The position numbers and the translations under genes were made by a program. From the NCBI RefSeq assembly GCF_000346465.2, contig NC_034010.1:800232-864231 (forward strand): 64,000 bases of DNA, written 5' to 3'. Position 1 is the first letter of the stretch. The number at the start of each line of letters is the position of its first letter. The notes under the pieces are model-generated. The model made no database searches. It was not told the DNA's origin and saw only the letters and a list, made by a program, of their open reading frames with translations. This DNA is from Prunus persica. Lineage: Eukaryota; Streptophyta; Magnoliopsida; Rosales; Rosaceae. Of the stretch, positions 35,787-64,000 are shown one piece after another.

Positions 35787-35789
35787 TGC

Positions 35790-35853: not shown

Positions 35854-35854
<1 letters not shown>

Positions 35855-38560: not shown

Positions 38561-38655
38561 TTGGCCTCAACTCAAAATGGAATTGCATCACCCTTCCAAA
38601 GGAAAAAAAAAAAAAAAAACAGAGAATAAAATAACAAAGTAGAAGGAAAATCAAG

Positions 38656-39882: not shown

Positions 39883-40072
39883 AAAGTACTAATTAATGTT
39901 CTCTATACATAAATTGTTGTGTTCTACTTTGCTTTTGTGCTACATGTTCTCTCCTTTGTCCAAGATAAATGAATACACAACACAATTTTCATCAAAGCCA
40001 ACAGGATTTAGAGCCCTCTTATACCATTATTGACCTGTTTGATCTCAATTTTCATCACTGAAAACGTCCCTT

Positions 40073-40400
40073 GTGAATATGGCAGTAACACTGCCTGATA
40101 TTTCTCTGTCTTATGGAAAAAAACAATCGATAGACCTTTCCCGCCGAAATTTTGTCGGGACTATTGAAGTGGAAGGGGATGCACAATATATTATTACTGC
40201 TCTTGAGAAAGATGGGGAGGATTTGCATGTGTGGAAGGTCACCTTTTTAAAGATGCTAAGTGCCTCGCACATTCTTTCTCTCTGGTGAGATGGCGATATA
40301 GCTCCATAGAATGTAATAAGGTGTCTCACTCCCTTGCTAGGCATGCCCTGTTGTTAGATCAAGAATCTTTTGGTTAGAGGAAGAGCCTCCATGACTTAAT
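40073..40400 (+). pseudogene. LINE RNase H remnant downstream of PG copy 1
   Basis: Reads as the C-terminal RNase H-like end of a plant L1-type LINE or non-LTR polyprotein: GDAQYIITALEKD, then (after stops and frame changes) a LARHALLLDQESFWLEEP-like tail near 40335-40385. The unit 2 copy (about 48720-48983) is cut short. Confidence 0.6.
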
Positions 40401-41767: not shown

Positions 41768-44750
41768 TGACAGGACCCGACCCAAATTCTACTTTGGAAT
41801 TCGTGTCAAACTCGGTTTTGTCCACCCCTCGGTAGGTGTGTCAGGCATGAATGACCAAAATACGCTTCTTGTCCTAATCCAAAAACTGATTTAGGGTTTG
41901 ACTTCTATCGGAAAACCGGCAGTCTCCGTTCAAAAAGGCACATGCACAGCAAACTCAAATAGTCTCGAGCATTTAGCGCAATCAACTTTACAAAACTGAA
42001 AATAACAAACAATCAAAAACTTGCAGCTGCACCAAGGTTAGCATAGGTTGCCCAAGTACCCTTACTGAGGGGATCAAGCCACATATAGTTCTTTATGCAA
42101 GAAAATAAAGTTCAACCTATATGTAAGCATATGAATTAAATATTCCATCGCACTTTCCTAAAACCAAAAGCTTCAAACTCTAATCAATCCGTTGAAACTT
42201 GAGCAAAAGATATTGATTTCAAAACAATCTTCCACCTATCACATACGTGCATATACAAAAACTTATATATAATACCTCATTACAGATAAGTAGGAAAACA
42301 AGAAAATTATTAAAATAATATCGACCACGTGAAACCTTAATATCAATATCAACGGTTTGAATAAAACATGCTTCCATCTTCCACATGTAAAAACAAACTC
42401 ATCACTCAAGAAGATAGTTGTGAATTGTATACAATCCTTAAAATTTGGAAAACTTTCATTCCTTGTCTCATAAATATGAATACATGTATTAAAAATTTCA
42501 CCAATAAGTACCAAGATAAAATCATCAATTTTAGTTTAAAACATCTCCAAACTCACATACTCTCCACCTAGGCATACCCCAAATCATAATCCGTCAATTC
42601 CAATAATATTGCGTCAATTCCAATTACCATATATGTTACATCCTTGGAAAACTCGGGGGACCCGTGGTCAGCCCGAGAATTCATATCCTCGCAGAAGTCT
42701 AGAGACATATAGGTAGATCGAGAATGCATGTCCTTGCAGAACTCGGGGGACACGTGGTCAGCCCGAGAACGCATATCCTCACAGAACTCGGGGGACATCT
42801 TGTCAGTCCGGGAACGCATATTCTCGCTGAATCGGGTTATCAGCCCGAAACGCATATCCGTCAAATTCCCTCGCAGGACTCAGGAAGATATAATCAACCC
42901 AAGAACGCAATGGTTCAGGGGTCCCCGAGACTCGTGGGCATTGTCATAAATGACTATACTGTTCCGAAGGCAACTAGGGGGCGGTACTCCAGTGGTGGGT
43001 TTTGAAAAACATTTTCCGAAACTTATCATAAAATTCCTCTTTTTCCACAAATCCAGTTTCCAAATTCTTTCTCAACTTTCCAAACATCAATTCTTAAATA
43101 GATAACCAAAAATCCCTTTTTAAAATGAGATCAATCCCAACATTCCGTAACTTGAACTTGACCATGCATAATCTTTCAAAACTGTTCTCAAACTACATTC
43201 AAATGTGTACAACATACTATTGAGAAAACTAGTATCCAGCATTCATCGATTTGAAGCCACCGCGAATATATTTAAATATAGACATACAATCAGGCATTTA
43301 ATTAATTCCTTATTCATGCCAAAATCCGGTTATCCAAGCCATTCCTTATTCATGGAAAGTAAAAGCGATTACATAATAATTCATAAAACACTCAAAACAC
43401 AATACCATTTTAAAACAAACCTCCAATTACAATTACAACTACTAAAAGGCCTCAATCGAACCAACAAAGCCCACAATCTAAGTCAACTAGGCTCGAAGGG
43501 CCTACGACCCCAATTGTTGTATGACAATTCCTATTGGTCCATAACCAAAAGTTCAGCCCATTCTAGGAGTCCCATCATGATCTAACGGTCGGTTTGACCA
43601 CGATCGTTGAATTTGACCAATTTGGGCATGCGGGGCCCACAACCTTCGATTTTCGATCCAAACTTTACTAGAAGTCCAACAAGGTATACTTAACAAGTTT
43701 CCAGAGTTTGGTCTTGATCGAGCGATCGGATCGCATGATCGGACGGTAAGCGGTTTACTTAACCCTAAAATCATTGATTAAGAGTATCCGGGACGCCCAT
43801 TTTCGATCCACCAGTTCAACAAATCCTAAACGTACGAGGAACAACGCATTAGAAAATGGGACCGATTGAACGGTCCAAACCTATTGAACCCGGATATCGC
43901 ATAATAAGTGCAATATCCTTTCGACTGTCAAACGATAATCAAATCCAAATTCGAGCATACTGTCACGCTCAAGACTACAAGGGTAACAATTTAGAACTTT
44001 ATGGGCCGCCACCCACCGACGGCAACGAGTGGGTGTCTTAAAAGATTTTCCAGCGACGAAAATTCTCCAAAACACTGGCGAATACCAATGCCAACAGATT
44101 CAGACTTACTAGGGGATCAAGTTTTGTTCTTGGACCAGGCCAAAAACTAGTCGAAACTAGCCGAATTGAAGCTGAAACCGTCGGCAAAAATGGGTATTTT
44201 GAACAACATGTGAAAACCTGAAAATTTATCCAAAATACCAGCATAGACAACTAGAGCACGTGGATGGGATGAAGATTCATACATGGATTGACGAAAACCG
44301 CCACTGGGATGGCCGAAAACGGCGTCGGAAGCTTCAAAAATCACCTAAACTTCCTGTCGTTCCAGTTTAATTTCCTTGGATTTTTGAGCTGAGAAAATGG
44401 GGGTAAGACGACACGAAACTTTTGCAACAATTTTGCTCGAATCGGACACCGGACGACGACAAAATCGCCATCGAAAATTTGTGGCCGCTCGTGTAAAGAG
44501 AGAAAGTTGCGTGCATAGAGAGAGAGAAAGGCTGACTAGGTATTTTAAAACCAACTTTGAAAAATTTACGTTTCTGCCACTGCACTTCCGTTGACCACAA
44601 CTTCTTCGTTATAACTCCGATTTGAGCCCAGTACGTGTCAACGAACTCGTGAGAGCGAGCTCTACGAAAGTAACCCTACTCCAAGGGCAAAATTGTAAAT
44701 CCACAACTAAATAATCAATTGAACAGAGATTTTTGGGACAGGGTGTTACA
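41768..44750 (+). mobile_element. Complete solo LTR, unit 2, with TSD TGCGA
   Basis: Begins TGACAGGACCC and ends GTGTTACA, flanked by TGCGA (41763-41767 and 44751-44755). It is 2983 bp with no internal coding region or second LTR, so it is a solo LTR left after LTR-LTR recombination of a large (probably gypsy) element. It split a copia RT gene between KWKKAVNE and the next RT codons. It includes a minisatellite (42648-42880). Confidence 0.88.
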
Positions 44751-45565
44751 TGCGAGCTCTCCAGAAGATTGCCACATGACAGTTCGTGCCTTTACCTTAT
44801 GGAAAGAAGACTGTGGGATGCAGGTTGATCTATATTATGAAACTCAAAGCAGATGGATTCATTGAAAGATATAACATTATATCGATGGCGAAGGCGTACA
44901 AACAGAGATATGGGGTGGGCTACCAAGAGACTTTTGCCCCAATAGCCAAGATCGACACTATCAGAGTCCTACTGCCTTTAGCAACAAATCTAGATTGGCC
45001 ACTACATCAGTTCGATGTTAAGAATGCCTTCTTACACAGAGACTTGGTAGAACAGATATACTTGGATTTACCACTAGGATGTAATTTAGCTCCTGAAAAG
45101 AAAAATCAAGTTTGCAAGCGCATAAAGTCATTATATGGGTTAAAACAATCTCTGAATCCATGGTTTGGCAAATTTACTAAGTCCATGAAGAATTTTGGAT
45201 ACACTCAAAGTAATTCAGATGACACCATGTTCTTGAAGTGTGATGAAGGAAATATCACTACATTAATTGTTTATGTGGATGACGTTGTTGTAATTGGGAA
45301 CGACAAAAGAGAGCAACATAAGCTACAAAAGTATTTGTCTCAGTAATTTGAGATGAAGGATTTAGGTACTCTTAAAGACTTCCACGGAATTGAACTAGCG
45401 AGGTCAAAAACTGGTACATTTTTGTCTCAAAGGAAGTATCTGATGGATCTACACACTAAAACAAGAATGCTTGGATGTAAGCATGTTGGCACACCCATTA
45501 AGATAAATCACAAGTTGTGAGAAGACATGGGCCGATTGCCAACTAAAAGGCACAATACCAGCACC
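44751..45565 (+). pseudogene. Copia RT fragment, unit 2
   Basis: Better preserved than unit 1: GYQETFAPIAKIDTIRVLLP, DWPLHQFDVKNAFLHRD, LYGLKQSLNPWF and YVDDVVVIGND are intact in one frame (44786-45343). It then stops at TAA (45344-45346); the sequence continues in frame to about 45560, where the fold-back element interrupts it. Confidence 0.88.
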
Positions 45566-46121
45566 TTCTTTTTTGTAAATATTAAATATCTTAGCCTTTT
45601 TTAATTACTTTAATTATTATAAATTTAGTGAACAATTAGTGTTTAAATTTTTTTACTAATTTCAAAAATTACTTAATAAATTGTAATTAATTATTTTAAA
45701 TTATTTTGTGGACTTTTTTTTATATTTTATTTTGTACAAAATTAGTTTATTTAGTTTAATATGTTCGAATATTCAATATGCCAGAATATTTTAATAGTAT
45801 CGTCGTGTGGCTATCCTCTTAAAACCCGAATATATTTAACAGGTATAGCCGCATGGCTATACTCTTTAAATATTAATATATTTTAATAATAGAGTCGCAC
45901 GGCTATACTATAAAAATATTCAAACATATTAAACAAAATAAACTAATTTTTTAGAAAATTAAATAAAAAACAAAGTCCACAAAATAAGTTAAAATAATTA
46001 ATTTCAATTTATGAAGTAAATATTGAAATTAGTAAAATATGTCAATATTAATTATTCATTAAATACATAAAAATTAAAGTAATTTTAAAATGGTAAGATA
46101 TCACTTAATTACAAAAAAGAA
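45566..46121. mobile_element. Fold-back element with GTATAGCC palindromes, unit 2
   Basis: Counterpart of 36939-37473, with arms TTCTTTTTTGTA and TACAAAAAAGAA. Palindromes lie at 45843-45862, 46136-46155 and a mutated one at 46184-46203. Confidence 0.75.
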
Positions 46122-46633
46122 CACAATTTTATGCAGTATAGCCGGGCGGCTATACGCTTGACATACATTCGAATATTTAAATAGTATAGCTGGACGGCGA
46201 TACTTAGAAAATATTCGTATAAATAGAAAAGTATAGCCACTCTTTAAATATTAATTTATTTTAAAAGTGTACTCCTTGTTTACAATGGCGCCCGCACGAT
46301 AATAACGTGCAGACCGTCCGAATAATCTTCAATTAATATAGTGGAAGGATCAAAATCAAGCTGGCATACTAATCCCAGCTTCAATTGGCCAAGCATGGGA
46401 AGAAAGAATGCCCTCTTGTTGGCATTGAACTGGTTGTAGGCCAAGAAAAGTATATAGAGTAGAAACTGATGCATTATCTAGACAATGATGAATTATTAAA
46501 TATATTAGAATTTTATAGCTCAGAACATGTGAAGGTATCTGAGCGAAGAAAAAAGACCTGTACAAGCACCACAAAATCAAAAAAAATCAAAGAACACAAC
46601 AATTAATCTTTAGTACTTTCCATTTCTTTAACC

Positions 46634-46747
46634 CAGCATAGGTAGCACAGGCAAGGGCTTTTGTCACACAAGTAATGGTGGGCTTGACATTAACATTGAG
46701 AGGTAAGAAGGTCTTTCTTTCCATTGTAGGTGAGATCAATGTCACCG
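46634..46747 (-). pseudogene. Antisense exopolygalacturonase 3' fragment, unit 2
   Basis: About 114 bp on the minus strand match the end of the PG coding sequence (DIDLTY to VKPTIT, then VTKALAC-like codons) with frame breaks. It lies head-to-head with, and about 560 bp upstream of, the intact PG gene. It is longer at its 3' side than the unit 1 copy, which has a roughly 30-bp deletion. Confidence 0.8.
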
Positions 46748-47208
46748 GCGGATAGCAAGCAAAAACCTATGGATTCTAAGAAAAATAAAAAGAGTATGGT
46801 AAAAAATAGATGAACTAACCACCACAATGGTGCAAATGGATTATCTAAGCTAAGTAGATGAATTAAAGTTGTTAAGATGAGGCACTTTCTAGTTGGATGA
46901 TATTAGAAAAAGTATATACATAGATGCGCCAATAGTGTAGGCATGGTATTTTCTTGTTAATCTTGTTAACTCTATCCAGGTGTGTATGCATGGTTTTGGT
47001 CCTCCTTTTTTGGAATATACATATATTGCGGGGTGTGGAGGAGGACAACAGTACTACAAACAGCTTAGCACATTCCAGATAGAGATTTGGTGATGAATAT
47101 TCTCAAGGCTAAACAGCTTACTAATTATAAAAATAGCATGCAACTGTGTATAAAAATAGTTAGTGATTGGTTGGATAGTTTGATGGTGTTGAGCCTTCCC
47201 AATCGGAC

Positions 47209-47214
47209 TATAAA
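47209..47214 (+). promoter_or_regulatory. TATA box of exopolygalacturonase copy 2
   Basis: TATAAA in GGACTATAAATTGG, about 100 bp upstream of the ATG; identical in context to copy 1. Confidence 0.65.
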
Positions 47215-47310
47215 TTGGCCTCAACTCAAAATGGAATTGCATCATCCTTCCAAAGGAAAAAAAAAAAAAAAAACCAAAGAATAAAATAACAAAGTGGAAG
47301 GAAAATCAAG

Positions 47311-48537
47311 ATGGCTATGAAATTAAGTTTCTTGGCAATGCTTTTGTGCTTATTGTTAGCATCTACACCTAAAGCTCATGCTAGTGTGTTTGACGTGACG
47401 AGTGCAACATACGGTGCAAAGCCTGGCTCTGATGTCAGTACGGCCTTGGCCAAAGCTTGGAGTGATGCATGTGCATCGCCATCCGCGAGTAAAGTTGTTG
47501 TTCCGAGCGGGACATACAAGTTAAAAGAAGCAACTTTCAGAGGCCCCTGTAAGGCTCCTATTGAGATGCAAGTTCAAGGCACATTGGAGGCTCCAGCAGA
47601 TGCTAGCCAACTCACAAGACCGGATACTTGGGTTGGTTTTCAGTACATTGACATGCTCACCTTATCAGGTGGTGGGACTTTTGATGGCCAAGGAGCACTT
47701 TCTTGGAATCAAAATGACTGCCACAAAAACAAAAATTGCAAACCTCTTCCCGTTAATCTGCGGTTCGAATTCCTCACAAATTCCAAAGTTCAGGACATAA
47801 CTTCACTTAACAGCAAATTTTTCCACACGCATGTTTTCCGGTGCAACCATACTACATTTCAACAGCTTACCATCACAGCACCTGACGAGAGCAGAAACAC
47901 AGATGGAATCCATATCGGGGCTTCGACTGCTATCAACATTACTCATTCAAAGATTGGAACTGGGGATGACTGTATTTCTATTGGTGATGACTCCCACGAA
48001 ATCACAGTGACTGATGTTACTTGTGGGCCAGGCCATGGAATAAGCATTGGAAGCCTTGGAAAATATAAGGAAGAAAAGGATGTGACTGGGATCATAGTTA
48101 AGAATTGCACCCTGACTAATATGGAGAACGGTGTGAGAATCAAAACATTTCCAGATTCTCCTTCCCCTAGCACTGCCTCGGGTATACACTATGAGGATAT
48201 TATCATGGTTAATGTCAGTAACCCTATCCTCATAGACCAATTGTACTGCCCATATACTCAGTGTGAACAAAAGCCTCCGTCAAAAGTTAAGATCAACAAT
48301 GTCAGCTTCAAGAACATTAAGGGCTCATCTTTCTCTCCACTTGCAGTCAAGCTTGTATGTACCACGGGCATACCGTGTGAGAATGTGGAGTTGACTGACA
48401 TTGATCTCACCTACGGTGGAAACAAAGGCCCTCTTACCTCTATGTGTTCTAATGTCAAGCCCACAATTACTGGCGTGACAAAGGCTCTTGGTTGCGCTAC
48501 ATCGTCCTTGGCACCTCTTCCTTTATCCAAGAAGTAG
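47311..48537 (+). CDS. Exopolygalacturonase (GH28), copy 2
   Basis: 408 aa, intronless, with all catalytic motifs present and the same signal peptide as copy 1. Differences from copy 1 are T173 (Met), E254 (Asp) and M271 (Thr), none in the active site. The promoter and downstream regions are also near identical. The gene is therefore a recent tandem duplicate and both copies should be functional secreted pectinases. Expression in pollen is inferred from the family, not shown by this sequence. An antisense PG tail lies upstream (46634-46747). Confidence 0.95.
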   Translation: MAMKLSFLAMLLCLLLASTPKAHASVFDVTSATYGAKPGSDVSTALAKAWSDACASPSASKVVVPSGTYKLKEATFRGPCKAPIEMQVQGTLEAPADASQLTRPDTWVGFQYIDMLTLSGGGTFDGQGALSWNQNDCHKNKNCKPLPVNLRFEFLTNSKVQDITSLNSKFFHTHVFRCNHTTFQQLTITAPDESRNTDGIHIGASTAINITHSKIGTGDDCISIGDDSHEITVTDVTCGPGHGISIGSLGKYKEEKDVTGIIVKNCTLTNMENGVRIKTFPDSPSPSTASGIHYEDIIMVNVSNPILIDQLYCPYTQCEQKPPSKVKINNVSFKNIKGSSFSPLAVKLVCTTGIPCENVELTDIDLTYGGNKGPLTSMCSNVKPTITGVTKALGCATSSLAPLPLSKK

Positions 48538-48719
48538 AAAGAACTAATTAATGTTCTCTATACATAAATTGTTGTGTTCTACTTTGCTTTTGTGCTACAT
48601 GTTCTCTCCTTTGTCCAAGATAAATGAATACACAACACAATTTTCATCAAAGCCAACAGGATTTAGAGCCCTCTTATACCATTATTGACCTGTTTGATCT
48701 CAATTTTCATCACTGAAAA

Positions 48720-48983
48720 CGTCCCTTGTGAATATGGCAGTAACACCGCCTGATATTTCTCTGTCTTATATAAAAAACAATCGATAGACCTTTCCCGCCG
48801 AAATTTTGTCGGGACTATTGAAGTGGAAGCGGATGCACAATATATTATTACTGCTCTTGAGAAAGATGGGGAGGATTTAAATGTGTGGAAGGTCACCTTT
48901 TTAAAGAAGCTACGTGCCTCACACATTCTTTCTCTCTGGTGAGATGGCGATATAGCTCCATAGAATATAATAAGGTGGCTCAA
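48720..48983 (+). pseudogene. Truncated LINE RNase H remnant downstream of PG copy 2
   Basis: Same remnant as after copy 1, but it stops at AATAAGGTG (about 48976) and joins directly to CTCAACGAACTTTAAC, which in unit 1 lies about 800 bp further on. A deletion in unit 2 (or insertion in unit 1) explains this. Confidence 0.6.
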
Positions 48984-49319
48984 CGAACTTTAACGTGATA
49001 GGCTTATCCCGGCGAACTTTGATGGGATAGACCTATCCCGGCGAATGTGTGTCGCCAGTCACCTCCTTTTATTCCTTCACAGCCAGAGCCACTATGTCAA
49101 AACAACCAGTCGCTCTGCCCAAACTACCGGTCGCTTTGTCCTCCTTTCCCGAACATTAAGCCTCTGTGTCAAAACAACCGGTCGCCAGTGAAAAATGATC
49201 GATCAACTCCACGCTGTCAAAATCATTCGGAGGAAGTTGAACTGCTTTTTGAGATTTTGCCCAATTCGGACCCACATTCAGCTTTGCCCCAAAACAAGGA
49301 TTAAAATCACTACTACAAA

Positions 49320-50580
49320 AAAGCAAAAAGACGACGGTAAATCACCGTCGTGTATTTGGTTTTTCAATGGTCGTGGAATCCACCGTCATCTTTTCCCTCA
49401 TAAACCACGACGCTAAATAACCGTCGTTGTTAAACAATACAACGTCATCAAAAAATACAAAACGACGTCTTTGTACTGCAAAAAGATCTAAAAAAAGCAA
49501 TCGAGGATGATAATAGACGACCAATTCTCTAAAAAGACCGTCGTTAAAAAGGGAAAATATGACACATATTAAGAGAACAAGGCCGCAAGATAGACATACA
49601 ACGACGACAATAAAAATACGCCGACGTTAAATATAATTTTCACGACAATAAAAAATATGACGTCTTTAAATACATTAGAAGACGACGTTATTGATACCTA
49701 CTACGTCGCACATATAAACACAACCGTCGTACAATTAATTTTCCACTTCGATTTTTCGATAAAAGATGACGTGGAAATAGTTGTCAGTGTCATTATTTAC
49801 GACGTATGTGTTTCTATAGTAGACGTTGAAAAACTAAACAACGTCAGTTACAAATATATGAGAGTCGTATTAAAAAATTTATACGTCCTATTTTCAGAAA
49901 CAAACAACGACCATAAATATTAGACGTTGTTAAATACAACAACGTCGGAAAACAATAAAAACAGACGTGTTTAGTCTGCTAAAGTTCTACAACGTCTCTT
50001 ATTTACAAAAAACCGTCGTGAAATAAATTTTCCACTTCGATTTTTCTAAAAAAGATGACGTGGAAATAGTTGTCAGTGTCATTATTTACGACGTATACAT
50101 TTATATAGTCGACGTTGTATTTATATGTATTCATTACTCACGACGCACTTAATCATATAGACGACGTTGAACGTCTAAACAACGTCGGTTCCAAATAAAT
50201 GAGAGCCGTATTACAGAACATATAGACGGCGTAGATTATGATGGGAGCCGTATTACAAATAACGTCGTTTAATTGTTATTAGACGGCGGTTATAATGAAT
50301 TTCCGTCGGAATTAATTTCGTTCCTCTTCGTTTATAAAAGAACTTGCGACGTGGAAAATGTATGATGACGTCGTATTTTTTAACGTTCAGATTACATATC
50401 TCGTTTTTTAGACGTCGGTATTATGGGATTGGAGTCGTGTTATTTTGAATTACATGGCGGTTCTTTATCCTTCACCGACGTGATATCCTGAATAATTGCT
50501 TCACAATAGCGTCGTGGTTCTTCATTGTTACGTTGCTTTAAGACGTCGGTAAATATGCTGAATAACTGATTCACAATAAC
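49320..50580. repeat. Left subterminal region of CACTA: CGACG/CGTCG motif array
   Basis: Short motifs (ACGACGGT, ACCGTCGT, ACGTCGT, GACGTGG) recur every 15-40 bp in both orientations, often as small hairpin pairs. A roughly 90-bp piece (TTTTCCACTTCGATTTTTC to GACGTA) is duplicated at 49739-49805 and 50029-50095. In En/Spm elements such subterminal motifs bind TNPA; that role here is inferred. Confidence 0.85.
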
Positions 50581-50668
50581 GTCGTGTTTTATTTGAACGT
50601 AGAAAGTGAAGAAATCACATTACAATATTTTACAAAATTAATGTCATACACTGCCAATTACATAAGCA

Positions 50669-53595
50669 TCATTCAATCCATATATCTTCACACCCATCTC
50701 GAATATTTTGACCGCCTAACTCACCTACCAGTTCATCAAATGTGTCAACATTTGGCATCCCTCTAGTAAATGGCTCACACTCAATTATCACATCACCTAA
50801 TACTTCATCACCAATAACATCATTATATTCTCTACTAGGCATTGATAACACTACCGACCAACCACGATGCATCGGGTCGTCAACAAAAAATATTTGTTTG
50901 ACTTGAGAAGCCAAAACAAATTGGTCATTCCTATGTCCAATTTTACTCAAATCTACAAGGGTAAATCCAAGTTCGTCGACTACAAGACCAGAACTATCTA
51001 TCCAATCACACCTAAAGACTGGGATTGTAAACTTTTGGTAGTCAAGGTCCCAAATTTCTTGAATGACACCATAGAAACCCATATTTGAGAGAATTGGGTT
51101 TTTATCCTTGGCACTAGCTTGCATGGTATGTGCAAGTAAATAAACTCCACTATTTTGAGTTGTCCGCACATCATCTTGTGCCTTGATATTGAATTTAATA
51201 CCTTTAATAAGATAGCTCCTATATAATGGCACTGACATGTTTGGACCAGCTGCTAGCCACCTTAAATTTTCTGATACGCCATGATTGTCTTCCTCAACTT
51301 CACTTTGAACCTGCAAATTAATCATATCTTAATTCATCCTAACATATAAATAAGAAGAAAATTAAAAGAGAAATACGTTATTCAACAACATATACCTTGA
51401 AGCGTAGCCATTGAATGAAAGTGCTATTGTGCTTATCCTGCAGCCACTTTGTTCTCTTTCTAAATTTTGGATAAGCAGTCTTGATGTGGATCATATGTTG
51501 CCTACATGACACGAAAAATTCAAGCATTACGGTCCCAAATATATAAGATAAACATAAGAAATAATTTTAAATGGAAACTTAAAGAATAAAACTCATACGT
51601 ACNNNNNNNNNNNNNNNNNNNNNNNNNNNNNNNNNNNNNNNNNNNNNNNNNNNNNNNNNNNNNNNNNNNNNNNNNNNNNNNNNNNNNNNNNNNNNNNNNN
51701 NNTTGCCACAGGGAGCATTGTTGCATTAAGGTATGACAATCATGTGATTTAAGGCCAAGAAGTCTTGAATCTTGTACAGATACAAGATTTTTAATATTTG
51801 AAGAATAACCTTCAGGGACCTTCATACCATAGAAAGAATTGCAAACCTCTCTCTTCTCTGCTCTTGACAAATTCCAAGGCCCAGGAGGCAAACGAGTACG
51901 TCTTTCTCCATACTCGGGTTGCAAATCAGTTTTGACCCCCATGTTCAATAAATCTAATCGAGCAGCAATCCCATCTTTATTTTTTCCAGGGATCTCCAGC
52001 AATGTACCAATGATACTATCGCAAACATTCTTCTCAATGTGCATAACATCTAGGGCATGCCTCACAGGAAGGTATTTCCAATACTCGAGATCAAAGAATA
52101 TTGATTTCTTCTTCCAACAAACTCTGTCACCATTTTCAACCATATGCAGCACTTCTTCTCCGGTTAATGGCTCTGGAGGTATGCCATATTCAGGTTTCCC
52201 ATTAAAAGCTGCACGTTGCCTCCTATATGGATGATTGATTGGTAACCATTTTCTATGCCCAATGTAACAAATTTTGTGGCCATTTTTCAACCTGTGACTA
52301 GGTGTATCATCGCCGCATATTGGACAAGCTTTATATCCTTTAACAACACAACCAGATAAGTTTCCATAGGCGGGGAAATCATTAATTGTCCACATTAATG
52401 CAGCTCTGAGTGTAAAGTATTCTCCATTATGTGCATCATACACTCCTCTAATCCCAACCCACAAGGATTTTAAATCATCAATCAAAGGCTCCAAGTAGAC
52501 GTCTATATCATTTCCGGGTTGTTTAGGACCGGAAATCAATAAGGTTAACATCATGAACTTTCGTTTCATGCACAGCCATGGAGGGAGATTATATGTAACT
52601 AAGATAACCGGCCAACAACTATATCTGCTACTTAGAGAACTGTGGGGATTGAATCCATCAGATGAAAGAGCCAATCTCAAGTTTCTCGGCTCATTACCAA
52701 ACTCAGGCCATTTATCATCAAGAAGTTTCCAAGACGGGGAATCCGCCGGATGAGACATCTGACCGTCAATTGATTTTCTAGCAGCATGCCACCAAGTCAA
52801 ACTCTTAGCTGTCTCATGTGATTGAAACATCCTTTTAAACCTTGGAATTGGGGGAAAATACCACACCACCTTCGCTGGCACACCCTCTTTCAAGATTGAA
52901 TCTTTGCCTTCCTTCCACCTTGAGATACCACAAGTAGGACAATTAGTTGAATCCTCATACTCCTTCCTATACAAGATGCAATCATTGGGGCATGCGTGCA
53001 TTTTCTCATAACTCAGCCCCAATGCACACAAAGTCTTTTTAGCCTCATACATGGAGGTTGGTATTGTATTTCCTTCTGGAAGCAAATCGCCTTGAAGTAT
53101 CAATAATTCTGTAAAACAGACATCACTCATCCCATGTTTTGCCTTCAAATTATACAACTTCACTAATGCCGATAACTTCGTGTACTTTCTACAACCAGGG
53201 TACACTGGTTGATCTCCATCCCCAATCACATTGGCAAACTCATACGGATCCGAACCAAAATCACCAAAATCATTATCATCCATATCAATTTCTTCAGACA
53301 CAAAACTGTACCTACTATGGCCATCATCTTCTTCAACATTTCTGCTAGCATTAGTAGTTGCTTCCCAAGGTTCTCCGTGAAATGTCCAATTCTTATAGCT
53401 TTGGTCAATTCCATTAAAGTATAAGTGATCCCTTATAATTCCAACCCCAAACAACTTCAAATTAACACATTTAACACATGGACAACGGATATGTGTTGTA
53501 GTTAGAAGATTTTCTACAGCAAAGTTCAAAAATGCTTCCACCCCAAACTCATATGCCTTCGATCTTCTATCCGAGTGCATCCATGACTTATCCAT
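50669..53595 (-). CDS. TNP2-type CACTA transposase (assembly gap inside)
   Basis: The start ATG at 53595 gives MDKSWMHSDRRS, the usual opening of these proteins; a GTG slightly upstream is not used. Residues 1-78 are the transposase-associated domain with HIRCPCVKC. Next come CPNDC (202-206) and CPTCG (219-223), then the TNP2 core with SSDGFNP (first catalytic Asp, about 313), GPKQPGNDIDVYL and HALDVMHIEKNVCDS. The frame is open for 631 codons to the N gap at 51702, where the DUF4218 domain begins. After the gap, exons 51501-51396 and 51310-50669 (GT-AG) give the end of that region and a DUF4216-like C-terminus. It excises and reinserts the element. No disabling mutation is seen outside the gap. 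Confidence 0.92.
51603..51702. other. Assembly gap (100 N)
   Basis: Exactly 100 Ns, a usual placeholder for a gap of unknown size. It removes most of the DUF4218 part of the TNP2 gene. The true length of the CACTA element is therefore uncertain. Confidence 0.99.
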
Positions 53596-54761
53596 CTCCG
53601 ACACTATAACCTATTATCTATAATAAAGTGAAAATACAGGCAATGACCATCACTATAGCAGATTATACAATGATCTAATCGCAAGTAATAAACAACAGAG
53701 ACGACGGGTTTTAATCAAAAACAGACGTATTTGGCATATATAGACGACGGATTTTCAACAGACGTCGTCTATTATACGTAATACAAACGACGGTTTATGA
53801 AAAAACCGTCGTGTATAAGTAATACAACGACGGTAGTTTAAAAACACCGTCGTGTAATCGTCGTCGTACGCCTTAAAATTCGTCGTGTCTCAGTTTATTT
53901 TCAAGAACACAAAACCCATTAAGAACACAACATATATATGAAACCAAGCAAGAAACCAACATATACATGAAACCAAGCATGAAAACAATAAATCCATTCC
54001 CAATTCAACATAACATAGGGTGATTAAAAGATACGACAAAATTAAATCCATTCCCAATTCAACATAACAGATAATGTAATCCATGAACCCATTAAACAGA
54101 AAATCCATGAACCCATACCTATAAGCATTGGTGCACTTTGCACCTTCTCCAGAGCGGAAAATGACAAGATCAAATAAAGGTGTCCTTTTGCTGGAAATCA
54201 TTTGGAAGTTGGTGATGTGTCTTTTTGTGTTGATTTCCAGCAAAAATACACCTTTATTTGATCTTGTCATGAACCCATTAAACAGAAAATCCATGAACCC
54301 ATACCTATAAGCACATTATTAACAGATCGCAAAGCATATACCTAAAACCCTTTAACAAAACAACCTAATATCATTCAATGAATTTACAAGGGGAAGATAG
54401 GGTTTGTACTTACAGGTTGGACGAGCTCACAGATTCGACGAGCCTGGAGAGTGCAACTTTTAATTAGAGCAGAAGTGAGAGAGCGAAATGTTATGTCGCG
54501 TGAAATCTGAAATTTTAGGTTTCAGGGATCAAAGTATAAGACTAAGAGCCAAATCTAAAAAAATTTAGGTCGTGCGAAAATTTTTAGAGCGCGCGCGTTA
54601 TAAAACGTCGAAAGAAAAACCAAGGCGAAAGTTCTACAAGTACCGACGTAAATTTAATATTCCACGACGGAAACTTCATTTTTCGGATTAAGAACGTAAG
54701 GCCGTTCATTTTTCGGATTAATTTTAAATTTATTTTGAATTTTTTATATAACGACGACTGA
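53596..54761. other. CACTA spacer upstream of TNP2, with fold-back at 54162-54269
   Basis: Contains CGACG motif arrays (53700-53890 and 54600-54760). A roughly 108-bp fold-back has 38-bp arms (54162-54199 and 54232-54269, TGACAAGATCAAATAAAGG at the tip). It lies between direct repeats ATGAACCCATTAAACAGAAA (about 54082-54129 and 54268-54314). TNP2 promoter elements should be here but none is certain. Confidence 0.7.
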
Positions 54762-56014
54762 AAAACCACGTCGGTGTTAAGAAATTAAAGACGTTGTAAA
54801 TTATATAAACCGACTTACATATTAAAATAACGTCGTTTAAAGCGTAAACCATGTCGTATGTTTTACTGTACGACGTAAAATATGTATTCCACGACCTAAC
54901 CACCGTCGTTAAAAATTAATACACTAAACCCATAAAATTAAATTATACAATTTAAAAAATTAAGTTTATAAAAGGTTTTATGGTTTTAAAGCCTAACATA
55001 TAACATAGACTACCCAAAAATTATACTTTAAAAATAAACCCCAATAAATAACAACACTAATCTCTAAACCCTAGACTCTAAACCCTAAACCATTAAACTA
55101 GAAGTGATTTTATGACTCATCAAAACAATTTTGTTTTGGATGGTCATTTTAAATTTTTGTTATTCAAAATGAATTTTTTCAAGGTTTATGTGGAAGAAAA
55201 TATATCAATGACTTCATAGGAGTTGACTTTTCAATTTTCTGATTTATTTTATATTTATTTTGAATATTTTGATATAAAAATAATAAAATATTCTTACCAT
55301 ACAACAAACCACGTCGGTGTTAAATAAATTGTAGACGTTGTAAATTGTAATAGACTACTAAGTCGTTAAAATGACGTCGTTAAAATGAGAAACCACGTCG
55401 GTGTTAAGAAATTAAAAACGTTGTAAATTATATAAACCGACTTACATATTAAAATGACGTCGTTTAAAGCGTAAACCATGTCGTATGTTTTACTGTACGA
55501 CGTAAAATATGTATTCCACGACCCAACCACCGTCGTTAAAAATTAATACCCTAAACCCATAAAATTAAATTATACAATTTAAAAAATTAAGTTTATAAAA
55601 GGTTTTATGGTTTTAAAGCCTAACATATACCCTAGACTACCAAAAAATTATACTTTAAAAATAAACCCCAATAAATAACAACCCTAATCTCTAAACCCTA
55701 GACTCTAAACCCTAAACCATAAAACTAGAAGTGATTTTATGACTCATCAAAACAATTTTGTTTTGGATGGTCATTTTAAATTTTTGTTATTCAAAATGAA
55801 TTTTTTCAAGGTTTATGTGGAAGAAAATATATCAATGACTTCATAGGAGTTGACTTTTCAATTTTCTGATTTATTTTAAATTTATTTTGAATATTTTGAT
55901 ATAAAAATAATAAAATATTCTTACCACAACAACAAACCACGTCGGTGTTAATAAATTGTAGACGTTGTAAATTGTAATAGACTACTAAGTCGTTAAAATG
56001 ACGTCGTTAAAATG
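54761..56014. repeat. Tandem duplication, period 627 bp, in CACTA spacer
   Basis: Two adjacent copies (54761-55387 and 55388-56014) are nearly identical, for example GTAAACCATGTCGTATG at 54844 and 55471. Each carries CGACG motifs at its ends and a motif-free AT-rich middle with a short CTAAACCCTA run that is not a telomere. Confidence 0.9.
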
Positions 56015-56376
56015 AGAAACCATGGCGGCTATTTAACTATACGACGTAAAATATATATATCAACGACTTAACCGCTGTCGTTACATAAACGTCGTCGATG
56101 ATACCCTGAACCCTTAAGAAATTGAAGATGTTGTAAACCATAAACGACTCAATTGTTCAAAGAACGTCGTCTAACTATATTTTTACGTCGTAATTGTTTA
56201 AAACACGAAACAACAAAATACGACGGTTTGTGACTTTATTAGGTCGTTGGAAAAGTATTACACGTCGGTTAAGCAATTTGTATGTTTGTTTTTTTTTTAA
56301 TTTAAGAAAACCTCAACAAATTTTTACATTACATATTATAGAGAAAATTTGTACATTATACATAAATATCAAGTGT

Positions 56377-59300
56377 TCAATAATTGCCCTGTTTAATAAT
56401 TTGGAAAACAAACTCTGCCCATTCATTCCGGACTTCATCAATGGCTTCTTGGGGGTATGAAGCTTCCTGGTTTCCCTTGGCATACTGCATAAACAATGAC
56501 TATTAGGGTTTATAAATAAAAAGAAATTCAATCACAGACGACGATATTTTTCATAACCGACGTAGTATATCCATTCAACGACGTTAATTTTACACGACCG
56601 TCGTTGATAATACAAAAAACGACGTGAAATGTATGAAGGTAATTTCTTCTTACCTTATTCTCAAACCCCAAGGAAGGATCCATGATGATGTCCCTCATGA
56701 AGCGCATTACATAATACCCGCATTCGACATTGCTGGGTTGCTTTGGTGTGCCTGAGAGAGTTTTTCAAATTACATTTTTACGTCCTGCTCGGGCTATGTG
56801 GGTATTATATATTTTTAAAGCACTGTTCACGATGTTTTTGGCCTCTTCATCGACCACACGATTTCCTGGCAGAGGATCCAGAAAATAGACGGTTTCTCTC
56901 TTTGCTCTTACAATCAGCAAAATCCAATGACGGCTGCACAAAATTAATATAAAAACGACAGTTATTTACAAAAACGACGTATTATAGTATTTCACACGAC
57001 GAAGTAAAGTAGCTAACGACGACATTATATATTTATCACGACGATAAATAAATACCGACGTGGTTAGTAGTTTCAAACGACTAAATAAAATAAAACACCG
57101 ACGTGGTTAGTTTATAAGCTGTCATTTATTGAAAATCATAAAAACAAAATCCTAAGGAGACTAACCCTGGATTGTAAGGCATCATGAAAATCTGTTCACC
57201 GTCTGTCTTCTGAAGTCGAGCTGCTACGAGTCGTGATCTTTCAGTTATTGTGCCAGAGTTGGCACTAACTGTAGCAGGGTCGATAAAGCCAACCATACTG
57301 CACATATTGGCTTTTTTCAAAACATCGTGTAAGTACCTAAACAAATAAAATAATATAAACAAGTCAGCACACAAAACACGACGGTTATGTATAAAAAAAC
57401 GACGTATTATAATATTTCACACGACGTACTGAAATAGATGAGGACGTTATAATATATTTATCACGACGGTTGTTAGTTAAGACGACGTGGTTAGTTAGTT
57501 AAGACGACGCAATATATAAACCAACGAGTTATTATTTTAGAAGTACAAACCTCATATATACAGCCAATACAGTAGCTCCAATTTCTTCCATGCCTGCAAA
57601 TTGTGTAATATCTTCAGGCAGGAGGAAGGTATCGCGCTCACCACCAAACACCTCCTTATCAATTGTAAATTGGAGTGTCTTATCCTCAGGCAGGAGTGTC
57701 GTTTCCACAAAACGACAAAGGGTTTTTAAAGAAGATGGCGCCTCCATATTTGAATAAGCACCAACTTCAATAACCTGTTTAAAGAAATAAAAAAAATGAC
57801 GTGGTAATTCAATAAAGACGACGGTTTAAGTAATAAAACGTCGTCTTAAAAGTATTTAAACGACGGTGAAAAAACTGTCGTGGTAATTCAATAAAGACGA
57901 CGGTTTTATGAATAAAGCGTCGTCTGAAACCATTTAAACGACGGTGCAAAAACCGTCGTTTAAATATTTTATTACGTCTTAAAAAAATTCCGCCGTCTAA
58001 GTTTTAAACAAACGACGGATTAAATAAAAATATCGACGTCTGAAATTTTGAAAAACAAATAAAAAAGGCAAAGTTATGTGAACATACCTTGTCGTCATGC
58101 TTTTCTTCATCTTCTTTCTCCTTTTCTTCTTCCTTCTCTTCATCTCTTTTTTCTTCTTCCTTCTCTTCATCTGGCTGATGTTTCCCCATTTTGGCAGTAT
58201 CATCCTCCAAATGTAGGGATCTCACATCACCTCCAGAGCAGCTAGCTTTGTCAGACATTGGATTTTTGGGGCTTTGGCTAATTCTTGGTTTAAGCATGCT
58301 TGGATCAAAATTGGGAATTAATTGGGAAAGCTGACTCAGGAAATGCTCCCTCTCAGCCTCTACCAATTGTTTTGTCCTAGCCTCCATCCTTAAGGCCTCT
58401 TCCCTTGCCTTAGCCTCCATCTTTTTAGTCTCTTCTTGAAGGAGAACTCTTAAACTGTCCTTCAAACGGTCGTCAAAGCTCACCCTCTGTGGTTTGGGCA
58501 AATTGAAATATTGCCTTGGGGAAACACCAGCACCAACTCCCCTCAGTCTGCCTGGATGCTCGGGGCCCAAAGCCATGGTCAGCACATCATTGCTGCCATC
58601 TACTCTGACTTTGCCTTCCGAGACTTGTTTCTGCAATTCATCCTAAAAAAAGATAAACAAAAAAACACACGACGGTTATTTATGTACAAACGACGTATTA
58701 TATAATTTCACACGACGCAATAACGTATAAACCGACGTTATTATAACTTATCACGACGGTAGTTATACCGACGTGGTTATTTATTTAAAACGACGAAATG
58801 AATAAACAACCGACGTCTTATGCTATAATTAAAGATAACAGAGTAGTGATTCCTATTTAGACCGTTAACGACGTTTTTAAAAAATTTTCGACGTGGTAAT
58901 ATCATTCACACGACGCGAAAATGAACCACCGACGTCTTATGCTGTAATTACAGAAAACATAGTAGTGATTCCTATTTAGACCTTTAACGACGTTTTTAAA
59001 AACTTTTCGACGTGGTAATATCATTCACACGACGAAAAATATAACATACGACGTAATAAGAATAATTCACAGTTTAATAAAAATTTAAAACAGAGTGATA
59101 GTAGGCTTACAATTAATTTTGCTTTCTCTGCCACCTTTGGATCAGGGATGTTACCATGTTTGTCCTGTCTAGCTCTCTTCCATAAGGTAGATCGATCAAT
59201 TTCTACCCCAGGCATGGTTTCCTCCAATTGATCCTCCAATCCAGCATATCCTTTTCGAGACAATCGATGATTGTACTCGAGTTTCTCCCTAATCTGTGCA

Positions 59301-59920
59301 TGTTGAGAATGCACAGACTCAAAATCTTTGGATAGCCTTGAAGCTACAAAGGCATCCCATTGTGCTTTCTCTATGAATTTATATGTTTCAGGGGGTTGGC
59401 TTAATTTCTCCCTGTCATTGGTGTATGGAAGGATATAATGCCTCGTTAGTGTAGACTTGAAATCCTTCCATTTTTTGGCAGCAGAAGATAAAACAGAGGT
59501 CTTGCCCCCTTGGCCTACGACAAAAGCCATGTCAACTGCTTCCCAAATCTGCTCCTTTATATCCTTTGGGATTTGGGACCATTTCTTGTCCACAAGTGGG
59601 ATCTTGGAGCGTGCCAAGACACCAATATACGACTGCATCTCAATATGTGCTTGGCCAACACCTTTCCCCCTTTTATTGTACTCAACAATTGGCCTCAGTT
59701 TCTGAAGCTTTCTCTTCACAACACGAGGCATTGTGCTCATACCTCGACCAGTCTTTGAATCATCAGAGATTGTTGTCTGGCTGGTTGGTTCTGTCTCAGC
59801 AGATGATGAAGCAAACTTCATCTTCTTCGAAGACTTCATCTCCTTCGAAGACTTGTCTTGGGGAGCTACCACTCCAAGCTTCTTGGAGCCAGAATCCTTA
59901 GTTTGTTGTTGAGAAACCAT
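56377..59920 (-). CDS. CACTA TNPA-domain/Ulp1-like protease fusion, one nonsense codon
   Basis: Six exons with GT-AG introns and matching phases: 59920-59111, 58642-58088, 57774-57551, 57336-57166, 56933-56654 and 56484-56377 (715 codons). Residues 1-270 hold a Lys/Ser-rich start and the plant En/Spm TNPA-like region (KWSQIPKDIKEQIWEAVDMA, LSRKGYAGLEDQL, DRSTLWKRARQDKHG). Then come a coiled coil and a Glu/Lys tract (EEKEEEKRDEEKEEEK). The C-terminal third is a Ulp1/C48 cysteine-protease fold with the His (GRHWILLIV), Asp (YFLDPLPG) and Cys (NVECGYYVMRFM) triad. A TGA at 56765-56767, where relatives probably have Trp, lies between the Asp and Cys. It would remove the Cys unless suppressed, so this copy is probably broken for protease activity. 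Confidence 0.88.
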
Positions 59921-60239
59921 TTTAACAGACAAAACTGCAAGTGAAAATATTTCAGGAAAACATTAAGAACACAAACGACGGTATTAAAAAAATACGACGT
60001 ATGATATGATTTTAGACGACGCAATGATATGATCTCAGACGTAATAAATGTTTAAAACCATTATTTATATAACGTCGTGGTATATATGTTCACACGACAT
60101 CAATAGTAATACACCGTCGTGGTAAACTATTAATTATATAACGTCGTGGTATTTATGTTCATACGACGTCAATAGTAATACACCGTCGTGGTATTAACAT
60201 TCACACGACGTAAAACAATAAGATATTTTTCGTCTATAT

Positions 60240-61450
60240 TAGATACCAACCTTAGTTTCTTTTTCTTTATATTTTATCAAATAAGGGAAAAACAAAAACC
60301 ATTGTTCAGCGAAATCAAACCTGCAATTAAACAAGCATATAAAAAAAGACTATTATTTTAAAAACAACTTTGTCAATTTTCAGACGACGCTAGAACAACT
60401 GACGAACCGTCGTGGTCTACCGTCGTCTTATTTAGTTGATGTAGTTGTCTTCAAAGTTGGAAACTTTCTCTCTTTGTCTGTATATTTTATCAAACTTGGA
60501 AAGAAGTAAAATGATTTTGGCCAGAAAAAAGGTAAAAAGATTTTTCAAACAAAAAACGTATGAGCATGCAAAACAGTAACCAAAATAGTGAAAATGAAAG
60601 CTTACCTTTTGCGTGCAATGAAAGAAAGAGGAAGATGATCGATGTTTAAGTTCAGAGACGACGAAGAAGACGAGAGGAAGACGATGAGAAACTCTGACAA
60701 TGCTCTGACAAGGAAAAAAGACGAAAAGGTTTCTCTGGGAGATTGAAATTTTTAATCGGGTTTGGAAACAGTGCATGTGTAAGTCGAAAAGTTGCTTACA
60801 TATAAATCCATTTCAAAAAAATAATACGGCGGTTACATTTAACTACGTCGTTTTTAACTAAAACGACGCAATATTTTTCATTCGACGTGGAATCATTTCA
60901 TTTAACGTCGTTAGGTTTAATATAACCGACGTGGATTTTAATTTTTAAATTATGAATAGAATTTTTTTTCCCGTGACCTTTCAGTTTATTTTTCAATTAC
61001 AGTGCGTTATAAATAGAGTTTTTTTTCCGGAGGAAATTTAAAACGAAGGAAATTAATATTCTGCAATATGTAAAGTTTCTTTTTTGGATGACAGATTTAA
61101 ATAAAATAAGAATATAAAAACAACAAATGTGTAAGTCAAGTAGACGAAAAGTTGCTTACATATAAAACCATTTCAAAAAAATAATATGGCGGTTACATAT
61201 AACTACGACGTATAAATTACAAAATACGACGGTACATTTAACTTCGGACGTGGTAAATAAATACGACAGTAGTTTGTAGGTACCGTCGTAGTAAACTCAA
61301 AAATTAAAGTACATAAGTAATAACTCGCGTCATGGTATATTATTTAACACGTCGTTTTTATTAATTTACCGACGTGGATTTCTGTAATATACGTCGATCA
61401 TACCGACGTTGATTTTACAATTTAAACGGCGGTTTTTTTGTAAGGACCGC
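60240..61450. repeat. Right subterminal CACTA region, part 1
   Basis: CGACG/CGTCG motifs in both orientations recur through this AT-rich DNA, with duplicated pieces (for example AAGTTGCTTACATATAAA at about 60789 and 61150). It contains the probable promoter of the TNPA/Ulp1 gene. Confidence 0.75.
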
Positions 61451-61464
61451 CGTTGGTTTTAAAA

Positions 61465-62030
61465 ATTTATTCTATAAATTTGTCGCTTTCATTCATTTTC
61501 GGTTTACATTTAAGGTTCCAAGTTCTTCCTCTCTCAGTCTCTCATGTCTCAAAGATAATAATTTGGATGTTTTCTCAAAGAGAAATTGAGCTTACTCGCA
61601 TCAAATATATGTCCACAAGAAGAAGCTTGTCAACTAGCCTTCTCACTTCCTTGATCAAGCCTGATAGGACACTTAGTGCTTCTGAATACTCCTTGCTTTC
61701 CATCAAAAGAGATGCAAGCCTGGCCTCCACTCGCTGTCGAAGGAAAGTTCGCTTCTCAGGGAAATCTGAAGATCAGATGTGCCTGATCCTCTGCTTGATT
61801 TTCTTGCCTAAGAAGATCCGTCGGATTTATTGTGATAGCCACTTCCTTTATCCGTAGAGCTTCAGAAGAAGAAGATGGGTTTCAAGAATGCGATAAAGAA
61901 TAGAAATGGCTTCAGATGGCCTCTAAAGCATGAGCAATTGAATCAGTAGTTTCTGGGAGATATGATGAAGACATTGTCAATGCTTTGAACTACACAAGTC
62001 CTGCAGAAAGATATGTTAAAGAAACTGAAA
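61465..62030 (+). other. Motif-free island in CACTA with a 96-codon open frame
   Basis: Unlike its flanks, this segment has almost no CGACG/CGTCG motif. From ATG 61568 it reads MFSQREIELTRIKYMSTRRS and ends at 61857. The Arg/Ser/Leu-rich peptide matches no family I know. It may be captured host DNA or an old exon of the element. Confidence 0.4.
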
Positions 62031-63047
62031 CAACGGCGGTTTTCTGTTCTACCGTCGTCTTTTCTCGTCGTCTATATTAAGTTACGATGGCGGTAGATTT
62101 ATAATTACCGACGTAGATTATTTTGTTAAACGTCGTTAAGTGTACTACAACCGACGTGGATTTTAATTTTAAATTATAAATGGAGTTTTTTTTCCCGTAT
62201 TCTTTCAGTTTTAGTTTTCAATTCCAAAGCGTGATAAATAGATTTTTCTTTCCCGAGGAAATTTAAAATGAGGGAAATTAATGTTCTAGAATTTGTAAAC
62301 TAACACGACGCAATATTTGCAAATCTGTGTCATCTGTTAAGATTATGATGTGGAACAGAGTTCCATCTGGTAAGATTTCGTAACCCTTGGGATCTCAGAC
62401 AAAACTGATTATGTCGGCGGTGTTCTATATAAACCGTCGTGGTTATTTCAATTCTTGTCATTAAGTAGATCTACCGACGTAGGATAAGAAAATCAAAGAA
62501 AAAAATTGTTAACAAAAATTCTTATTAAGACGACCGTTAAAATTAAAGGTACGACGTATAAAATGAATAAATACGACGATAAATTTTATTGTACGATTTA
62601 AAGATAACGTAGTAGAACTATACGAGAATGACGTCGATATATTTATATTTTCCGTCGTTGTAAATTAATTTAATACGGCGATATTTTGTATTTTAAAGCC
62701 GTGGATTTGTTTGTAATTATACGGCGTCTTATACGAAAACCTCGTCGTGTTATTTTATGAGTAAAAACGGCAGTTTTTATTGAAATCGTCGTCTTTACTT
62801 TCTACGTCGGTCGATTCATAACTTCTGCCGTTCTTTGTTGGCATTGATTTTACACTGCGGAAATCTGTTTCAAATAGACGTCGGTTGTTTAATTATGTAC
62901 GTCGTTGTTTTTGAACAGCCATTTGAAACTCCATTTTTTAGTTGTCTAAGGTTGTATTACACGACGGTGTTTTTAGAACCGTCGTCTTTTTATAAACCAC
63001 GACGGTTTTCACTGAGACCGTCGTTGTTTTCTGGTCGTCTTTTTCAC
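62031..63047. repeat. Right subterminal CACTA region, part 2
   Basis: Densest motif array of the element; hairpin pairs such as ACGACGGT...ACCGTCGT follow each other up to the right TIR. Confidence 0.85.
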
Positions 63048-63061
63048 TTTTTGTAGTAGTG

Positions 63062-64000
63062 AATGGGTTTCAACAAACTCAATTATCCTGAAGTTTTTCA
63101 TCATTTTCACATCAATGTCAAACTGACCTAAAGCAAGCCCAATACTCCCCCTCCCCTAAATCAGTTTCAATTGAATTTCCCCAAAATGAACCCTACCTTC
63201 CCAACTCCTAACCCTACCCCTCAACACTCAAACCACCACCACCATCCACACTCAAAATTTGATGTGGAAAATTGTAGTTTCTAAGGTGGTTTTTTCTATT
63301 TAGTATGAAATGTAATATTATCGTTTCATTTTTATGGGTCTATTTTGTGTGAAATTTTCTTTTACCTTTAACAAGTTGACCCCCGGAATGGAATTTCTTG
63401 TATTGGCCATTCAGCACATCTTCTCTAGCCAACTTCACTAAGCCCATGTCTGTGAAAGTACTTTATTAAAACATTAGCATTTTATGGGTTTTCATTAATA
63501 CATAGTTCTTTGGAATTAATAGGTATATTATTAAGGCAACGACAAAGAAAGGAAGAACTATATTTACATAGAGTGTTGCTATTTCCACCCCCTGTTCAAT
63601 ATTCCCACCCACCTTATCTTCCCACTATAAATTTGAAAAAACACAATCTTATCTTTCCACCCACCATTATTCCTAAAATACCATGTAATTATTAATTCAT
63701 GCAAATTTCCACTATGTAATGTCCTAAAAAACACAATCCTATCTTTCCTCCCATCATTGTTCAATCGAAGAGAATTTGGGCTTTTGAGGGTTTGAGGTAG
63801 AAACTTGAGAGACAAAGAGGGTTGGTAGTTTTTGGTTTTTAGTTGGTGGTGGAAAAGGAAATTTATTTGGAAATCAATATATGAGAGGCTGGGCAAAATT
63901 GCCAGGTGACCATTTTTTTTTTTTTCTTTTTTTGGGGTGGGGGAGAGGGGAGGGAGGGAGAGGCGGGGGTGGAAGAGGGAGGGAACTGGAGACTTGGGAA
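63062..64000. repeat. Repeat R, copy 3 (right part of the CACTA target)
   Basis: It continues the sequence of 49284-49307 and matches 31847-33000 and 30693-31270. It shows the uninterrupted TRIM target (GTCTATTTTGTGTG at about 63339). It ends at the window edge in a G-rich tract, so the block continues beyond. Confidence 0.88.

Follow-up and report, generated by a model that had tools for sequence, protein, structure and literature searches.

Why would a transposable element fill its introns and spacers, as well as its ends, with one short CpG-rich motif? The question is raised by a 64,000-nt stretch of the peach genome (Prunus persica, contig NC_034010.1, positions 800,232 to 864,231; hereafter the window), in which a first-pass annotation had recognized a CACTA element whose introns and spacers, besides its termini, were saturated with CGACG and CGTCG. 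Combining motif counts, comparisons among genomic copies and domain and structure searches, we asked how these motifs are arranged, whether they are maintained, and what might read them.

The element, its genes and its family

A CACTA transposon occupies 49308..63061 and encodes a tnp2 transposase as well as a Transposase_24/Ulp1 protein. Its left end at 49308 reads CACTACTACAAAAA, and the inverse of CACTACTACAAAAA ends at 63061, giving 14-bp terminal inverted repeats (TIRs); an N gap occupies 51604-51703. Elsewhere in the window, around 31827-31860, an empty paralogous site reads GGATTAAAATGGGTTTC and shows the sequence uninterrupted, so that the target-site duplication (TSD) can be set at 3 bp, AAT (left copy 49305..49307, right copy 63062-63064). 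The CACTA (En/Spm) features are thus all present: CACTA TIRs, 3-bp TSD, tnp2 transposase, Transposase_24 gene and subterminal repeats. The left side of the element is adjoined by two direct copies of 7.1-7.3 kb (33074-40328 and 41838-48982, 90% identity); a repeat of part of the left flank occupies 41117-41416, and the stretch 31846-32140, where the empty locus lies, repeats the right flank.

Both genes lie on the minus strand. The transposase gene (50647..53595) encodes the Transpos_assoc (PF13963), Transposase_21 (PF02992; E 2.4e-96 in the domain search) and DUF4216 (PF13952) domains. The TnpA-like/Ulp1 gene (56387..59920) comprises six coding exons (59920-59111, 58642-58088, 57774-57551, 57336-57166, 56933-56653 and 56486-56387), whose limits were placed by hand using splice signals and the reading frame. 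The exon 1/2 junction is backed by an almond protein (P0093) and the exon 5/6 junction by a peach protein (P0005) that has both the Transposase_24 and the Ulp1 domains and whose gene model omits exons 2-4. Exon 1 carries Transposase_24 (PF03004; E 3.3e-8), and exon 5 carries the Ulp1 domain Peptidase_C48 (PF02902) in two pieces, one barely above the curated cut-off and the other barely below. The proposal that a TNPA-like/Ulp1 gene resides in a CACTA element is therefore borne out by the TIRs, the TSD, PF02992, PF03004 and Peptidase_C48. In the window copy, exon 5 holds an in-frame stop, at a codon that is a stop in 3 of 26 copies, so that the complete protein is not makeable by every copy.

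The predicted structure of exon 1 (mean pLDDT 69) displays a three-helix core, with a block at residues 81-220 reaching pLDDT 76-92 and lower values in the remainder; the predicted helices span residues 90-106, 119-132 and 139-166, with a long helix at 198-223. A search of this fold against the PDB returned no clear structural relative, and the domain search gave the protein only a sub-threshold match to Myb_DNA-bind_5; we therefore infer DNA binding by the TnpA-like protein from its family membership. The element also contains a captured, motif-poor fragment of the host proteasome gene RPN6/PSMD11 (61575..61772, minus strand), whose best PDB match has an E-value of 1.9e-20, the entries named RPN6/PSMD11 following at 1e-10 to 2e-7. 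Public records name many almond relatives of the TnpA-like protein ‘Non-ATPase subunit 9’; perhaps the almond gene models take in the RPN6 fragment.

The family is abundant. Exact matches in the 227.5-Mb genome numbered 663 for the left end, 624 for the right end, 465 for a 32-mer of the transposase (TPase) gene, 371 for an exon-1 32-mer and 285 for a 35-mer of the intron-1 array, while reversed-sequence controls of the end, gene and array probes gave 0 genome matches. A listing of left ends over the first 22 Mb of C1 gave 98, of which 75 have a right end no more than 25 kb away and 23 lack such a partner. The 75 pairs have a median length of 13.5 kb and the shortest measures 5.8 kb, short deletion derivatives with these exact ends being absent below that length among them, as expected if internal DNA were needed in cis. 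By eye, these lengths cluster near 11.3, 13.4 and 14.2 kb. The 138 scored matches to protein P0096 fall into a leading group of 25, with 70-91% identity and stops in 20 cases, and 113 others at 64-66%, including one copy of the present family; deeper subfamilies exist besides it. A review table lists CACTA at 4.25-7.41% in Prunus species (PMC13359793).

Density, phasing and orientation of the motif

Occurrences of CGACG and CGTCG (together CGWCG) were counted against 500 dinucleotide shuffles per compartment. The introns of the Ulp1 gene hold 42 motifs in 1,393 nt (30/kb; shuffle mean 5.9, maximum 12) and the intergenic spacer (53596..56386) holds 34 in 2,791 nt (mean 3.1, maximum 9). The left subterminal array (49308..50646) contributes 28 in 1,339 nt (mean 5.95, maximum 15), the right subterminal array (62031..63061) 21 in 1,031 nt (mean 3.8, maximum 9) and the array upstream of the TnpA-like/Ulp1 gene (59921..61560) 25 in 1,640 nt (mean 3.5, maximum 9). 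By contrast, a single motif was found in 2,686 nt of TPase exons (shuffle mean 0.34) and none in 2,141 nt of Ulp1-gene exons (mean 0.40), counts that match the shuffled expectation and are not lower. No motif occurs in the 163 readable nt of the short TPase introns, of which there are two, one broken by the N gap. A single motif was counted in 470 nt of the captured RPN6-like segment, and the rest of the window, beyond the element, contains 18 in 50,246 nt against a mean of 11.6 in 20 shuffles. Ratios of observed to expected CpG lie at 1.7-2.9 for the five motif-rich noncoding compartments; the short TPase introns stand at 1.4 and exons at 0.38-0.44. A stretch outside the element with 27% GC and a CpG ratio of 1.36 (37001-38000) contains zero CGWCG.

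The spread through introns and spacer and the rarity in exons reported by the first-pass annotation therefore both hold: density lies far above the shuffled null rather than level with it, and exons and introns differ. The motif is a feature of the element's native noncoding DNA, except for the short TPase introns, and hardly occurs in coding or captured DNA. The annotation had also counted a dozen or more motifs in 57781-58040, and its three words with their inverses indeed give 14 matches there, several at one site, the strict core CGWCG occurring 9 times and GACG/CGTC 17 times. When no core was preset, the top over-represented words included ACGACG, ACGTCG, ACCGTCGT and ACCGACGT, to which the near-palindrome CGWCG is common.

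The cores are regularly spaced. Their median gap is 22 bp and core-to-core distances peak at 19-22, 40-44 and 61-64 bp. Where neighbouring cores are 10-32 bp apart, the gap measures 19-22 bp in 28/31 cases in the introns, 10/16 upstream of the Ulp1 gene, 7/11 in the spacer and 7/10 in each terminus. Motif pairs at this distance are more numerous than under random placement, most clearly in the introns and the upstream array (p 0.0001) and least so in the left terminus (p 0.01). About 21 bp corresponds to two turns of B-DNA, and such a spacing would thus place the sites on one face of the helix. Intron cores, moreover, point the same way in 38 of 42 cases (38:4), while orientations are mixed in the other compartments. 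Intron 1 (58643..59110) holds 16 CGACG in a single orientation, intron 2 (57775..58087) 6 CGACG and 3 CGTCG, introns 3 (57337..57550) and 4 (56934..57165) 6 CGACG each, and intron 5 (56487..56652) 4 CGACG and 1 CGTCG. The highest density and the strongest phasing are found in the introns rather than in the termini. The phasing of about 21 bp and the shared orientation of the intron motifs are additions to what had been noted before. Within the spacer, 54759-56028 is a 640-bp tandem duplication with units 97.5% identical, at which BLAST alignments of the copies are interrupted; perhaps the unit number varies.

Enrichment in five noncoding compartments, phasing and the 38:4 orientation of the intron cores support a reading of the arrays as binding sites. 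The best account we can give, to which we attach an even chance, is that these sites bind a protein of the element itself and serve anti-silencing of the VANC or TnpA type. Its main rival, which we consider rather unlikely, is that the internal motifs would merely extend the subterminal TnpA sites in the service of transposition, loading transposase, compacting the element and joining its ends, with no anti-silencing. A transposase-binding scaffold and an anti-silencing array were two of the three roles suggested by the first-pass annotation, and either may still apply. Identical words do occur in termini and interior, all 75 end pairs found are long, and the subterminal repeats of known CACTA elements, with GC-rich and AT-rich parts, are taken as sites for TnpA-like proteins (PMC2613891, PMC4219821), which would fit here; however, the same literature, as far as drawn on, places such repeats in the termini, whereas the densest and best-phased arrays of the present element are those of its introns. 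A second alternative, which we hold to be improbable, would make the arrays enhancers, placed in introns and between genes, through which host transcription factors drive the element's genes. bZIP-type transcription factors have ACGT or GACG cores, and ACGTC/GACGT is also enriched, with 27 occurrences in the introns against 6.4 in shuffles, but this enrichment is partly a by-product of the core; the conserved core is CGWCG, which is found in both termini as well, and a 21-bp phase held across kilobases would exceed what enhancers require.

Age of the copies and selection on the motif

Retention of so many CpGs had been attributed to youth or selection, and both find support in comparisons at two time depths. 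A 260-bp intron stretch is identical to that of the window in all 40 scored copies, the window's own included, among 664 candidates. Across the window copy and 25 others (26 copies, each compared across 10 kb), the mean singleton rate against the majority is 9.3e-4 per site. The copies examined are thus very young; an assumed mutation rate near 7e-9 per site and year would make them roughly a hundred thousand years old by this crude measure. A block of linked differences at 56100-57750 divides the 26 copies into two forms, about 10-12 of them with the minor form, as if two subfamilies had swapped that stretch.

Singleton transitions per site-copy reach 2.1e-3 at motif CpGs (15 in 7,193), 1.1e-3 at other noncoding CpGs (3 in 2,792, few events and hence a rough rate) and 1.9e-3 at exon CpGs (6 in 3,123). 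The corresponding values are 2.2e-3 for noncoding CHG, 1.8e-3 for exon CHG, 0.8e-3 for CHH and 1.2-1.9e-4 for A/T, so that motif CpGs change about 10 times as fast as noncoding A/T (1.9e-4), and CpG and CHG decay at about equal rates within motifs and within exons. These CpG and CHG transition rates are typical of methylated DNA, and the inserted copies look methylated and silenced, a finding on the state of these copies rather than on what the protein does. Since motif CpGs change about as fast as exon CpGs, the arrays do not appear to keep inserted copies unmethylated, and the data do not support the suggestion that motif CpGs are spared in situ; once inserted, they are lost at the pace of exon CpGs.

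Motif variants among the 26 copies are singletons rather than shared (17:0), against 85:42 in other noncoding DNA (Fisher p 0.003) and 66:38 in exons (p 0.001); restricted to CpG and CHG transitions, the comparison of motifs with exons (15:0 vs 16:2) is not significant (p 0.49). Motif changes appear after insertion, and none were seen in lineages that moved again. Over 78 motifs in the 26 copies, counted outside the query stretch and the duplicated spacer, 1,792 of 1,809 readable sites are intact.

Conservation over deeper time was judged from duplicated arrays within the element, introns 1, 3 and 4 holding arrays related by old duplication. These agree at 79% of A/T positions, at 40-46% of G/C positions outside CpG and at 93-97% of motif positions; whole motifs are preserved in 32 of 40 cases, other 5-mers in 141 of 693 (20%). 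Motif-position identity in these introns is 0.955, above both the mean (0.768) and the maximum (0.895) of a shifted-mask null (5,000 trials). The expected identity would be 0.79 at the A/T rate and about 0.5 at the CpG rate seen in the copies, the latter using a CpG rate ratio of 3.4 calculated by hand from the copy counts. Nine hand-picked duplicated pairs are in line with this, with 68 of 84 motifs unchanged and 2 more differing only at the central A/T, against 698 of 2,069 control 5-mers. As mutation is fastest at CpGs, the motif should be lost first without selection; motif positions are nevertheless conserved in the duplicated arrays, where they are the best kept, and in the 26 close copies, and the motif has apparently been maintained by selection. 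If a short, phased noncoding motif is under selection, some factor must recognize it, and a protein is the simplest candidate.

A neutral origin, in which 21-bp tandem units spread by slippage and duplication in a family too young for CpG decay, is already disfavoured and in our view highly improbable. It draws on the youth of the copies and on the internal duplications of the arrays, but has to face intron arrays that differ by 21% at A/T while remaining 95.5% identical at motif positions despite the fastest mutation at CpGs, zero shared motif variants among 26 copies, and CpG-poor exons in the same element. An RNA-level role, in which transcribed introns fold stably and affect splicing or small-RNA production, is scarcely plausible: intron 2 folds better than 60 shuffles (z -6.4), with z -2.5 for intron 1 and -2.0 for intron 5, but no such gain in stability is seen in intron 3 (z 0.2) or intron 4 (z -1.3), the mostly single orientation of the intron motifs does not favour hairpins, and the termini show the same phasing. 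The data support the presence of phased arrays, the lack of such arrays in exons, selection on the motif and a recent amplification of the family.

Anti-silencing as the preferred reading, and its known counterparts

Under the anti-silencing reading, the phased CGWCG arrays of native noncoding DNA are putative protein-binding sites under selection, probably bound by the TnpA-like protein that the element encodes, in which a Transposase_24 N-terminus is fused to an Ulp1 protease. With sites 21 bp apart on one face of the helix, this protein could load cooperatively along the element; a coat on noncoding DNA would oppose methylation there, both genes would stay expressed, and the family would spread, with VANC for VANDAL21 and TnpA for Spm as the models. 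The identity of the binder, its cooperativity and a demethylating or anti-silencing effect are what we infer here. The hundreds of ends and gene matches across the genome count as family success and speak for this reading; methylated-type decay, the search of exon 1 against the PDB with no clear match and the motif-free short TPase introns count against it, although anti-silencing active only while the protein is produced would be compatible with methylation-like decay of inserted copies. More tentatively, and with somewhat less than even confidence, we propose that a CACTA element evolved whole-element anti-silencing independently of VANDALs, its TnpA-Ulp1 protein loading on phased CGWCG arrays and clearing methylation, and that a need in cis for the internal arrays explains the missing short derivatives.

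If true, two unrelated transposon superfamilies would have reached the same answer to silencing, placing sites for their own protein in DNA that is free to change. The element would offer a test bed for the removal of methylation over kilobases by an element-encoded protein, and for whether an Ulp1 domain (SUMO-protease type) aids that removal, and would bear on how a 227-Mb genome came to hold hundreds of copies of one family, most of those measured being 10-16 kb long. Phased motif arrays in the introns of transposon genes would also provide a sequence sign for finding similar systems.

Among CACTA elements, Spm/En with TnpA and soybean Tgm share with the present element CACTA ends, a 3-bp TSD, tnp2, a DNA-binding second function, and direct and inverted subterminal repeats with GC-rich and AT-rich parts, and their activity is affected by methylation (PMC2613891, PMC4219821). 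In the mutable soybean line, TgmR* was less methylated at its subterminal repeats and over the 3' end of ORF2 (PMC4219821). TnpA of Spm has been cited as an activator, with demethylation accompanying its action. In the parts of these accounts drawn on here, however, the repeats are described for the termini, whereas those of the peach element also fill spacer and introns, and its second gene, unlike theirs, has an Ulp1 domain. CACTA elements with Ulp1 domains are known from grapevine (Cactavine-2, -3, -4, -5 and -13), where CACTAs measure 10-25 kb; these are described as relatively old and mostly defective, in contrast to the young and abundant peach family, and the portion of the description used makes no mention of noncoding motif arrays (PMC2528002). 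CACTA elements of Chenopodium likewise have tandem repeats inside them, beyond their ends, but in the described cases these form a captured satellite array of 171-bp monomers near the 3' end and not a short motif across introns and spacer (PMC8978399).

Closer parallels of layout come from the VANDALs. According to a review, some VANC genes (KIU) carry an Ulp1 domain and act via noncoding motifs (PMC13317346), a likeness at the level of domain and layout, although KIU-bearing VANDALs have a Mutator-like transposase, unlike the present CACTA. In Arabidopsis, VANC21, the nearest demonstrated case, binds YAGTATTAY in intron, intergenic and terminal DNA of VANDAL21, where its sites form dense same-orientation arrays, often as tandem repeats, and causes methylation to be lost through the element (Hosaka et al. 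2017, PMC5735166); RdDM targets the same noncoding regions that carry these sites (PMC10398659). The spread through introns and spacer, which the first-pass annotation had called unusual, is thus so for CACTA elements, in the literature consulted, while the same layout is known in VANDAL21: a short motif in introns, intergenic DNA and termini, rare in coding DNA, in dense arrays of shared orientation and tandem repeats, all of which the peach element displays, its short TPase introns excepted. The two nevertheless differ. VANDAL21 is Mutator-like, whereas the transposase here is Transposase_21/tnp2; YAGTATTAY has no CpG and CGWCG has two; the 21-bp phase of the present arrays has no reported equivalent in the part of the VANC21 description used (PMC5735166); and a binder and hypomethylation have been demonstrated for VANC21, while the peach element offers a candidate binder gene. 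Within a CACTA frame, the latter element unites sites laid out as in VANC systems with a TnpA-like gene that bears Ulp1.
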